A stretch of 64,000 bases of DNA. Origin: an uncultured Clostridia bacterium (GTDB taxonomy: Bacteria; Bacillota; Clostridia; Oscillospirales; Ruminococcaceae). Positions 55,907 to 64,000 of the stretch are shown piece by piece. The notes under the pieces are model-generated. The model was not told where the DNA came from and made no database searches. It saw nothing but the letters and a program-made list of their open reading frames with translations. The DNA is taken from the NCBI GenBank assembly GCA_947589185.1, contig CANQCK010000004.1, positions 49,584 to 113,583 of the forward strand, written 5' to 3'. The translations under genes and the position numbers were made by a program. Every line of letters begins with the position of its first letter. Positions within the stretch are counted from its first letter, which is position 1.

Positions 55907-58345
55907 TTAAGCCTTAGCTTTGGTTTTTAAAGTGAGTTTATCAGCAGTCTTATATGGCTTAACAAGCATATAAACTATGAACACTGCAATAAGAATTGCC
56001 GCAATAAGACCGATAATGTTCGGACTGCCTGTTAATGCACTTCCGATTTGGTAGATCATAAGGGCAACCGCATAAGCGAATACGCATTGGTAAGCTATAG
56101 CAAAAGCTGTCCACTTAGGACTGTTCATTTCCCGTCTGATAGCACCCATTGCCGCAAAGCAGGGGGCACAGAGAAGATTGAAAGCTAAGAACGCATAGCC
56201 TGCAAGCGGCGTCATACCCTCAAAGTCGAGAACTCCGAACACTCCGACAACCTCTTCTTTAGCAACCAGACCCATAATAGTAGCGATAGCAGCCTTAATG
56301 TTACCGAAGCCGAGCGGTGAGAATATTCTGCAAATTGCGTTTCCAACTATTCCGAGAATGCTGTTTTCAAGCTCCATATCGGCACTGAACGTGAATATTC
56401 CGTCAACAAAGCCGAAGCAAGAGCCTGCCCAGATGACGATAGATGAAAGAAGAATAATAGTTCCTGCTTTTTTGATGAAAGATGAAGCACGTTCCCACAT
56501 TGAACGCAGAATGTTGCTGACTGTCGGCAGATGGTATGCGGGAAGCTCCATAACAAACGGTGCAGGGTCGCCTGCGAACATCTTTGTTTTCTTGAGCATA
56601 ATGCCCGAGACGATTATTGCAGCAATACCTAAGAAGTATGCGCTCGGTGCGACCCACCATGTTCCGTTAAAGAGGGCGGCTGAGATAAGTGCAATGATAG
56701 GCAGCTTAGCTCCGCAGGGAATAAATGTTGTAGTCATAATTGTCATACGGCGGTCACGTTCGTTCTCAATCGTTCGTGACGCCATAACTCCCGGAACTCC
56801 GCAGCCTGAACCTATAAGCATTGGTATAAACGACTTTCCCGATAAGCCGAACTTGCGGAATATCCTGTCCATAATAAATGCAATTCTCGCCATATATCCG
56901 CACGATTCCAAGAACGCAAGGAAGATAAACAGTACCAGCATCTGAGGTACAAATCCAAGTACCGCTCCGACTCCGCCTACAATACCGTCTAAAATCAAGC
57001 CCTGAAGCCAGTCTGCACAGTTTACGGCAACAAGTCCGTTTTCGACCAGAACAGGTATTCCGGGTACCCATACGCCGTATTCAGCAGGGTCGGGAGTGTT
57101 TGTAAACTCGCCGTCTCCATTGAGAGGAAGCATAGGAGTTATGTCAAACTTACCGTTCTCTTTGACGGCAAGCTCTTCGCCGTATGAACCGTAAGCCTCT
57201 TCAAAAGCACTGAAGTCTTTTTCCTCAACGGCTGTTAAAAGCTCGTCTGCACCGGTTATACCCGCTTTGCTTGCACCCTCAAGAGCCGTCTTGACCTCAG
57301 GCAGGAATATTTCCTTTTGGGCATACTCGCTTGCAGCGTCGTCGTATTCGCTTGAACCTATGCCGAACAAGTGCCAGCCGTCGCCGAAAACGCCGTCGTT
57401 AGCCCAGTCTGTAGCCCATGTTCCTACAGTAGAGACCGAAACATAGTAAACAATGACCATTACTATCGCAAATATGGGAAGTGCAAGCCATCGGTTTGTT
57501 ACTACCTTATCAATTTTATCGGTTACAGTCAGTTTTCCTCTGCTTTTCTTTGTGTAACAGCCGCCTATGATAGAAGCGATGTATGTATATCTTTCACTGG
57601 TTATGATGCTTTCTGAATCGTCGTCCAGCTCGTCTTCGCAGTTTTTGATGTCAGTTTCTATATGTGAAATTATCTTACTGTCTAAATTCAGTCTCTCGAT
57701 AACCTTATCGTCTCTCTCGAACAGCTTGATAGCAAGAAATCTTTGTTCGCTTTCGGGCATATCGTGCAAAACTGCCTCTTCAATGTGTGCGAGTGCGTGT
57801 TCAACGCTTCCGTCAAAGCTGTGCTGAGCAACCATTCTTTTTCCGCTTTTTGCAACGCTTATCGCCTTTTCGATAAGATCGTTTACGCCCTCGCTTTTAA
57901 GAGCCGAGATTTCCGTGACCTCACAGCCAAGCTCTTTTGAAAGCTTCTGCGTATCCAGCTTGTCGCCGTTTTTCCTTACTATATCCATCATATTGACCGC
58001 TACTATAACAGGAATTCCAAGCTCGACAAGCTGAGTTGTAAGATACAGATTTCTCTCAAGATTTGAGCCGTCAATGATGTTGATGATAGCGTTTGGCTTT
58101 TCGTCTAAAAGAAAGTTTCTCGAAACGACCTCCTCAAGCGTATAAGGCGAGAGCGAATAAATTCCCGGCAGGTCAACCAAAATGACCTCGTCATCTTTAG
58201 AACTGTGACCTTTGATTTTTCCTTCCTTTTTTTCTACTGTTACTCCCGGCCAGTTGCCGACAAACTGATTTGATCCTGTCAAAGCGTTGAACAGGGTAGT
58301 TTTACCGCTGTTTGGATTTCCCGCAAGTGCTATTTTGATACTCAT
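55907..58345 (-). CDS. feoB: Ferrous iron transport protein B
   Basis: ALAGNPNSGKTTLFNALTGSNQFVGNWPGVTVEKKEG, DLPGIYSLSPYTLEE, gate domains. Confidence 0.96.
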   Translation of the reverse strand: MSIKIALAGNPNSGKTTLFNALTGSNQFVGNWPGVTVEKKEGKIKGHSSKDDEVILVDLPGIYSLSPYTLEEVVSRNFLLDEKPNAIINIIDGSNLERNLYLTTQLVELGIPVIVAVNMMDIVRKNGDKLDTQKLSKELGCEVTEISALKSEGVNDLIEKAISVAKSGKRMVAQHSFDGSVEHALAHIEEAVLHDMPESEQRFLAIKLFERDDKVIERLNLDSKIISHIETDIKNCEDELDDDSESIITSERYTYIASIIGGCYTKKSRGKLTVTDKIDKVVTNRWLALPIFAIVMVIVYYVSVSTVGTWATDWANDGVFGDGWHLFGIGSSEYDDAASEYAQKEIFLPEVKTALEGASKAGITGADELLTAVEEKDFSAFEEAYGSYGEELAVKENGKFDITPMLPLNGDGEFTNTPDPAEYGVWVPGIPVLVENGLVAVNCADWLQGLILDGIVGGVGAVLGFVPQMLVLFIFLAFLESCGYMARIAFIMDRIFRKFGLSGKSFIPMLIGSGCGVPGVMASRTIENERDRRMTIMTTTFIPCGAKLPIIALISAALFNGTWWVAPSAYFLGIAAIIVSGIMLKKTKMFAGDPAPFVMELPAYHLPTVSNILRSMWERASSFIKKAGTIILLSSIVIWAGSCFGFVDGIFTFSADMELENSILGIVGNAICRIFSPLGFGNIKAAIATIMGLVAKEEVVGVFGVLDFEGMTPLAGYAFLAFNLLCAPCFAAMGAIRREMNSPKWTAFAIAYQCVFAYAVALMIYQIGSALTGSPNIIGLIAAILIAVFIVYMLVKPYKTADKLTLKTKAKA

Positions 58346-58399
58346 ATTTAATGACCGTTCCTTTCCTGCGTGAGTTTGATTTTCACGCTGTATATTTGC

Positions 58400-58415
58400 G
58401 TTAGGTATAGCTAAC
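58400..58415. promoter_or_regulatory. Palindrome GTTAG-GTATAG-CTAAC between feoA and feoB
   Basis: Same motif as sites upstream of feoA. Confidence 0.55.
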
Positions 58416-58431
58416 TTGTATGCAGAATGAT

Positions 58432-58653
58432 TTATTCTATCTCTATCATTTCTGCGTCAGCCTTTCTCAGAGACAGCTCATAGCCTCTTACCGTAACCTC
58501 TATTGGGTCTCCGAGAGGTGCTACCTTTCTTATATGTATATCTACGCCTTTTGTAATTCCCATATCCATAATTCTGCGTTTTACCGCTCCTTCCCCGTGC
58601 AGACGCTTGACCTTCACAGTCTGACCTATCACGGCTTCCTTTAATGTTTGCAT
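58432..58653 (-). CDS. feoA: FeoA domain protein
   Basis: VKRLHGEGAVKRRIMDMGITKGVDIHIRKVAPLGDPIEVTVRGYELSLRKADA. Confidence 0.92.
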   Translation of the reverse strand: MQTLKEAVIGQTVKVKRLHGEGAVKRRIMDMGITKGVDIHIRKVAPLGDPIEVTVRGYELSLRKADAEMIEIE

Positions 58654-58697
58654 AAGATCTCTCCTTTTTCTTCTTTTATTTATTTATATGTTTTAAA

Positions 58698-58913
58698 TTA
58701 AGCAACTATAATTTTATTTGCCATTTCACGGCTGATAGCCACTCTTGTGTTTTTTACGTTTACTATTAGATTTCCGCCGTTGTCCGATACGATAAGTATT
58801 TCTCCGCCCTCGACAAACCCTAAGTTCCCTAAAAATCGTTTCGTTTCGTCTTTGCCCTTGATTTTCTTTATTTTTATCTTTTCGCCGACTTCTGCAAAGG
58901 TCAATGGTATCAT
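58698..58913 (-). CDS. Second FeoA domain protein
   Basis: FAEVGEKIKIKKIKGKDETKRFLGNLGFVEGGEILIVSDNGGNLIVNVKNTRVAISREMANKI. Confidence 0.9.
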   Translation of the reverse strand: MIPLTFAEVGEKIKIKKIKGKDETKRFLGNLGFVEGGEILIVSDNGGNLIVNVKNTRVAISREMANKIIVA

Positions 58914-59477: not shown

Positions 59478-59583
59478 GTAAAAAGAGAGTACTGCACACG
59501 GCAAACTAATGCCTAGGCGGTTACTCCCATGAATAGTGTTTAGAAACACCGCAACATTGGAAGCGTGGCGGTGTTTCTTTTTT
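59478..59583 (+). ncRNA. Candidate antitoxin RNA of type I TA locus 2
   Basis: TTGACA-N16-TATAAT (59444-59471); terminator with GAAACACCG/CGGTGTTTC and T-run; near-identical to locus 1. Confidence 0.6.
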
Positions 59584-59603
59584 ATGTAAAAATAAAAAAG
59601 CTT

Positions 59604-59693
59604 CTAATTTTTCTTATTAAATATAAGAAAAGCTAGAGTGATAATCTCGGCTATCATGCTGATGAATGAAAACAATTCATAATATGATACCAT
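59604..59693 (-). CDS. Small hydrophobic toxin-like peptide 2: MVSYYELFSFISMIAEIITLAFLIFNKKN
   Basis: Minus-strand promoter TTGACA-N17-TATAAT upstream; RBS aaaggggg. Confidence 0.72.
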   Translation of the reverse strand: MVSYYELFSFISMIAEIITLAFLIFNKKN

Positions 59694-59795
59694 ATTACCA
59701 CCCCCTTTCGGGGAGAAACCGCTTGCCTTTTTATGTACAGTACTCTCATATTTATTATAATTTAAAATATATACTTTGTCAAATAATATCAACCG

Positions 59796-63314: not shown

Positions 63315-63468
63315 ATTTGACTATAGTATAATAATGCAGAAAGAAAATCCACAGGACTATAAAAACTCTGTAATTACTTTTTTAAAGGTTGAGGAAAAAA
63401 GATACAAACGATATTTAAGAACCAAGAAAATACTTTACAAATCCGAATATATATGATATAATATGAAT

Positions 63469-63623
63469 AAGCTAAGAAAGGTTGTTTGAGGTGGACAATT
63501 TCGTGGCATCCACACGCCGAAGGTAATGACAGGGAGAAATCCCGAGAGATGCAGGAGAAAGCCACGCCTGCCAAATAACCATATGCTTTAATACCACTCT
63601 GAGAAATCAGAGTGGTATTTTTT
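63469..63623 (+). ncRNA. Candidate structured RNA with own promoter, kissing-loop fold and intrinsic terminator
   Basis: TTTACA-N17-TATAAT (63434-63462); helices GGTTGTTTG/CAAATAACC, GTGGA/TCCAC, GGGA-GAAA-TCCC, GCAGG/CCTGC; loop complement CGTGGC/GCCACG; terminator TACCACTCTGA-GAAA-TCAGAGTGGTA-T6. Confidence 0.75.
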
Positions 63624-63903: not shown

Positions 63904-64000
63904 ATGGCACGTCCGATAAAAAGCGGGCTTGATTACTTTCCTCTTGATTGTCAGCTAGATGATAAGTTTGAATTGATTGAGGCAGAGTTTGGTCTGACAG
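63904..64000 (+). CDS. DUF4373/Lin1244-like protein, N-terminus only (3' truncated by window edge)
   Basis: MARPIKSGLDYFPLDCQLDDKFELIEAEFGLT; RBS ctaggagg. Confidence 0.7.
   Translation, partial: MARPIKSGLDYFPLDCQLDDKFELIEAEFGLT

Follow-up and report, generated by a model that had tools for sequence, protein, structure and literature searches.

Many conserved RNA motifs of bacteria have no assigned role, among them the skipping-rope RNA, whose original description is reportedly that of Weinberg et al. in 2017. In Rfam the family (RF02924) is typed as Gene; sRNA only. The Rfam 14 paper (PMC7779021) takes the pseudoknot of this family as its worked example, and skipping-rope motifs have been noted among phage RNAs (PMC8501573). 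No function is assigned to the RNA in the literature searched, and a PBECR toxin partner is absent from that literature, whose scope leaves out the 2017 paper. Another orphan motif, the abiF RNA (RF03085), was later identified as an antitoxin RNA that binds protein and belongs to a phage-borne toxin (PMC12373285). PBECR domains have been described separately, and their authors predicted both RNase activity and injection (PMC5512222); the searched parts of that paper and of the one on MuF polymorphic toxins (PMC5576092) make no mention of an RNA partner.

The present analysis concerns a skipping-rope RNA in the genome of an uncultured Clostridia bacterium, within a stretch of 64,000 nucleotides that was analysed as a whole and is referred to here as the window. 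The RNA family and its pseudoknot were already known, and what is new is the toxin partner: a well-supported association with PBECR2/PBECR3 nucleases, which offers a testable function for the motif.

The RNA and its transcription unit

The features of the locus are as follows.

63334-63456, + strand: truncated PBECR2-type nuclease (toxin) gene, 3' remnant only, from our own PBECR2 profile and the sister locus
63347-63348, no strand: deletion junction, 292 bp missing compared with sister genome G975, from exact comparison with its locus L225
63434-63439, + strand: -35 box TTTACA, from sequence, inside the codons for the toxin C-terminal ..LYK..
63457-63462, + strand: -10 box TATAAT, from sequence, starting right after the toxin stop codon
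63480-63580, + strand: skipping-rope RNA (RF02924), P1 included, from the cmscan match at 63481-63579 and covariation
63480-63488/63572-63580, + strand: helix P1, 9 bp
63491-63495/63509-63513, + strand: helix P2
63532-63535/63540-63543, + strand: helix P3
63551-63555/63567-63571, + strand: helix P4
63502-63507, + strand: first half of the kissing loop, CGTGGC, in the P2 loop, covarying with 63561-63566
63561-63566, + strand: second half of the kissing loop, GCCACG, in the P4 loop, covarying with 63502-63507
63590-63623, + strand: rho-independent terminator, from sequence, a single hairpin on folding, with a GAAA loop and a T run to 63623

A cmscan search against Rfam places the RNA in RF02924 with 50.6 bits against a gathering cutoff of 36.7 (E=4.1e-10), the model being matched at full length (1-80/80). 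The initial annotation had named no family and had raised the prospect of a new RNA class, while stating that an Rfam match would speak against it; given this match, and a pseudoknot already on record, the RNA is a member of a known family and hence no new class. The window copy belongs to a longer subtype, in which the kissing loop has 6 bp and additional sequence precedes P3. Weak Rfam matches at 59540-59752 (RefB11, SurA, rli43, GOLLD) fell far under their cutoffs and were taken as chance.

Read directly from the sequence, the promoter, helices and kissing loop lie where the initial annotation had placed them. The two promoter boxes, separated by an N17 spacer, carry one mismatch over their 12 positions, and a promoter with at most two mismatches in 12 is found within the 75 nt 5' of the RNA in 81 of 128 relatives, compared with 27 of 640 shuffles. 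The terminator, previously given as 11 bp followed by T6, is the same object as a perfect stem of 13 bp when the A-T pairs beside the T run are counted (63590-63602/63607-63619). After the RNA, a reading frame begins at 63904 and is cut at 64000 by the end of the contig, which is also the end of the window (MARPIKSGLDYFPLDCQLDDKFELIEAEFGLT..); its 32 residues have no Pfam match, and its product resembles a phage or mobile-element replication protein. Sister genomes G975 and G968 both contain a stretch that matches this frame. Elsewhere in the window, a ferrous iron transport cluster on the - strand (55907-58913), recognised by eye, comprises a FeoB-like and two small FeoA-like proteins.

Single-sequence folding of the window RNA is 4.7 sd better than dinucleotide shuffles, none of 200 shuffles being as good, and the minimum-energy fold does not exactly reproduce the three hairpins, which may be expected where a kissing loop holds the structure. 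For this reason, the structure in the initial annotation was tested directly on 37 distinct relatives of the same subtype. It is paired in 95.2% of cells, as against 79.9% in shuffles, and its covariation score of 0.404 (0.136 shuffled) was reached by none of 500 shuffles; when the registers are slid by 1-3 columns, pairing falls to 29-43%. All helices covary, including P1 and the kissing loop, for which the initial annotation had proposed such a check. In the kissing loop 93.7% of cells are paired and variation is among the richest in the structure, with double-sided changes numbering 21 at alignment column 28, 15 at column 29 and 6 at column 30, and one pair that takes AU, GC, CG and UG among relatives. 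Fold and covariation agree with the proposed structured RNA, with its closed junction and kissing loop.

Linkage to PBECR2/PBECR3 toxin genes

Since a BLASTN search of the RNA against phages and plasmids yielded one partial match only, profile and covariance searches were needed. The bacterial set consists of 128 skipping-rope RNAs from 93 genomes of the window's phylum, with 1.5 kb either side scanned on both strands using profiles grown from the first cases. Around these RNAs, the upstream PBECR2/PBECR3 matches number 72, all of them on the strand of the RNA, and three more lie downstream, these being the toxin of a neighbouring RNA and two convergent toxins; a convergent arrangement is seen in G842. 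For 67 of the 128 RNAs, a same-strand toxin frame ends no more than 300 nt before the RNA, mostly at -24 to -92, and Pfam confirms the partners as PF18810/PF18812 (PBECR2/PBECR3). About half of the RNAs have no adjoining toxin, and no conserved gene was found downstream of the RNA in the neighbourhoods first examined.

Among 391 genomes of the class, the toxin is present in 40 and an Rfam-detected RNA in 36 of these (Fisher p=2.3e-33 for the association). Beyond the 36, a focused scan finds an RNA of 40.5 bits in toxin-positive G063, and G427 holds a candidate in the expected position that stays under the threshold. Two full-length toxin genes have no detectable adjoining RNA (L174 in G104:C6 and L206 in G262:C98); G104 carries an RNA on another contig, and none was detected in G262. 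Conversely, RNA without toxin occurs in 17 of the 53 RNA-positive genomes of the class. The relationship is asymmetric, the toxin rarely occurring without the RNA and the RNA often without the toxin. Some Pfam PBECR3 matches in large polyvalent proteins (G022, G105) have no RNA and appear to belong to other PBECR branches. Divergence of toxin and RNA is correlated (Spearman 0.63, p<=0.001), as would also be expected from simple linkage.

The RNA is usually single-copy and contains no variable guide-like segment. Arrays of two to three skipping-rope RNAs beside one toxin occur in three genomes (L041 7214-7428, L042 5627-5838 and L147 in G455:C70); the copies are 22-26 nt apart and differ in sequence within an array, an arrangement reminiscent of ToxI repeats.

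Because the profiles had been grown on the 128-RNA set, the linkage test was repeated on an independent set of 61 viral contigs picked solely by short RNA patterns, the viral scans as a whole using single-protein and RNA-pattern queries. A toxin frame lies upstream on the same strand in 37 of the 61 contigs and elsewhere in none. For annotated plasmids, one toxin query returned ten records, and in all eight homologues examined the RNA adjoins the toxin, seven times above the Rfam cutoff; the hosts are Brevibacillus, Priestia, Sporosarcina, Macrococcus, Fusobacterium, Treponema and Azospirillum. On plasmid p7 of Azospirillum argentinense (L221 1462-2020), a PBECR3 protein stands convergent to a skipping-rope-like RNA with a sub-cutoff score of 30.9 bits, and the family may extend into Alphaproteobacteria past the reach of the Rfam model. 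In Streptococcus phages, the toxin is annotated as 'spbA protein' and is encoded between lysin gene and attachment site; at both loci examined, the RNA follows about 20 bases after the spbA stop. Partnership with such a toxin explains the scatter of the RNA over phages, plasmids and chromosomes.

The toxin protein

Most of the toxin partners, at about 120-160 residues, are stand-alone proteins; in the others, the domain lies at the C terminus of a phage Mu F (MuF) or minor capsid protein, in agreement with how PBECR domains have been described (PMC5512222). Four residues hardly vary, namely two histidines, a proline and a lysine, and the conserved histidines belong to the predicted active centre. 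The AlphaFold model of the toxin is confident, with a pLDDT of 91.4; a fold search with it against the PDB gave nothing at E<=0.001 (best E 0.11), and a PDB sequence search with the toxin profile returned weak ribosomal-protein matches only, at E 0.04 or worse. With no confident PDB relative, the structural claim is limited to the Pfam assignment, and nuclease activity is predicted from this PBECR assignment together with the conserved histidines. In two phage MuF regions (L046, L049), the MuF C-terminal domain is not PBECR and a skipping-rope RNA is located farther downstream, in L049 after a CPCC-type small protein; by analogy, these RNAs might be likened to the orphan immunity genes of polymorphic-toxin cassettes.

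Loss of the toxin in the window

The toxin copy in the window is a pseudogene. The sister genome G975 carries at L225 an intact toxin frame of 127 codons followed by an RNA identical to that of the window in 99 of 99 bases, and the remnant codons at 63349-63453 correspond to residues 93-127 of the intact protein, with the stop codon TGA at 63454-63456. Identity with L225 runs from the left as far as 63348 and resumes on the right at 63347; the sequence missing between the two runs takes with it the toxin start and residues 1-92, both conserved histidines included. Our PBECR2 profile matches the remnant at positions 84-112 of 112 (E=1.7e-6), and a search of the window's genome with toxin alignment A3 returned G000:C4:112923-113015 (positions 82-111, E=8.7e-5). 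Pfam has no match to the 40-residue remnant, the intact sister protein matching PF18810 with 52.0 bits, and no intact PBECR2 gene was found in the window's genome. The initial annotation was correct that no gene directly follows the terminator; the gene that matters lies upstream, as this truncated toxin tail.

Since the -35 box lies within the toxin tail and the -10 box after its stop codon, transcription of the RNA from this promoter requires that the tail be retained. Similar tail-only remnants adjoin other orphan RNAs in G440, G489 and G451 and in the viral locus L288. Within the window's genus, the RNA is present in all four genomes that have a full-length toxin, and two of six RNA genomes lack one. 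At this locus, sister genome G968 has the same flanks with neither module nor RNA. The window and the sister genome make up a natural before-and-after pair, in which the toxin is deleted and the RNA unchanged.

Proposed function and alternative explanations

The main reading, to which we assign a probability of about 0.76, is that the skipping-rope RNA is the RNA antitoxin of a type III-like PBECR2/PBECR3 module, orphaned in the window by loss of the toxin. This toxin-antitoxin or immunity module would pair the RNA with a PBECR2/PBECR3-type nuclease that either stands alone or is joined to a phage head protein (MuF or minor capsid) at its C terminus. The RNA would be transcribed from its own promoter overlapping the 3' end of the toxin gene, end at its own terminator, and fold into a P1-closed junction locked by the kissing loop. 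In this form the RNA most probably inhibits the nuclease by binding to it, in the manner of type III RNA antitoxins; direct binding is suggested by analogy with ToxIN and AbiF/RCd22, and both the toxicity of this PBECR clade and its neutralisation by the RNA are presumed. In the window, the 292-bp deletion removed the toxin start and the conserved histidines while RNA and promoter survived, and the orphan antitoxin may benefit the cell by shielding it from incoming elements that carry the toxin. An antitoxin is predicted to show a toxin rarely found without RNA, an RNA often found without toxin, a strong promoter of its own and placement on plasmids and at prophage ends, which is the pattern seen, and an antitoxin role is likely.

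Control of toxin expression rather than activity, either by a type I-like antisense RNA or by an element in the 3' part of the toxin mRNA that affects stability or termination, would fit the fixed position of the RNA just 3' of the toxin stop codon. However, the complementarity of the RNA to the toxin frame is at chance, no better than that of shuffled RNA (mean z -0.02, sd 0.93, 58 pairs), and a type I antisense RNA was rejected on this ground. The strong separate promoter, the convergent arrangement in G842 and on the Azospirillum plasmid, and the persistence of the RNA as an orphan after the toxin is gone, as in the window, make a cis element of the mRNA improbable too, and expression control as a whole is regarded as unlikely. 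A somewhat slimmer chance is given to an RNA-programmed effector in place of a toxin and antitoxin, in which the RNA would serve the nuclease as cofactor, guide or preferred substrate. The close partnership of a nuclease with a conserved structured RNA, and their correlated divergence, would agree with this; yet a cofactor would give the opposite asymmetry or none, whereas here the RNA is kept without the nuclease in the window and in 17 of 53 RNA-positive class genomes and the nuclease is seldom kept without the RNA, and a guide is disfavoured by the absence of a variable guide-like segment.

The least probable of the explanations weighed is that mobile elements merely carry a trans-acting regulatory sRNA, or an orphan riboswitch, whose cellular target has nothing to do with the toxin. 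The many orphan copies of the RNA and its bare Rfam typing as an sRNA gene are compatible with such a role, but the toxin linkage holds across independent genomes, viral contigs and plasmids, and the neighbourhoods first examined hold no conserved downstream gene. The riboswitch option, one of two offered by the initial annotation, was discarded: the RNA has its own promoter and terminator and precedes no conserved gene; its conserved neighbour is upstream, a nuclease-toxin gene that comes before the RNA in about half of the relatives. The other option, a trans-acting RNA, is the better of the two.

Extended beyond this locus, the antitoxin reading would give skipping-rope RNAs in general the role of antitoxin or immunity factor to PBECR2/3 (SpbA) nucleases. 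Together they would form a type III-like family, so far unrecognised, across Bacillota, Fusobacteria, Spirochaetes and Proteobacteria, with RNA rather than protein as the immunity partner of a toxin fused to phage head proteins and with orphans as immunity genes kept after the toxin was lost; we hold this broader proposal to be reasonably probable. If true, it would suggest RNA immunity against phage-delivered MuF toxins and would enlarge the small set of RNA-protein toxin-antitoxin systems by a new toxin and a new RNA family.

Comparison with known systems

The window RNA shares with the skipping-rope family RF02924 the three hairpins in a P1-closed junction and the pseudoknot between the P2 and P4 loops. 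For the toxin half, the closest relatives are the MuF polymorphic toxins of temperate phages (PMC5576092) and PBECR domains (PMC5512222), the toxin half likewise occurring at the C terminus of MuF or minor capsid proteins; unlike there, immunity here is predicted to be provided by RNA. The spbA locus is reported to ensure the segregational stability of plasmid pHT1030, according to the title of Lereclus and Arantes 1992 as cited in PMC9430311, and the Streptococcus phage toxins annotated as 'spbA protein' beside the RNA recall it through an inherited name only.

The AbiF/RCd22 system differs in its protein family (AbiD/F), in its RNA, and in the position of RCd22, which lies upstream of the toxin. 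In the classical type III systems (ToxIN, CptIN, TenpIN), the RNA is also upstream, as tandem repeats in one operon with the toxin, whereas the skipping-rope RNA is downstream, has its own promoter and is mostly single-copy; the toxin here is PBECR2/PBECR3, with no Pfam match of the ToxN, CptN or TenpN type. Like those systems, the skipping-rope module is found on phages and plasmids and would counter a predicted nuclease toxin with a small pseudoknotted RNA, and it shares with type III the genetic pairing of a structured non-coding RNA and a nuclease toxin, here a predicted one.
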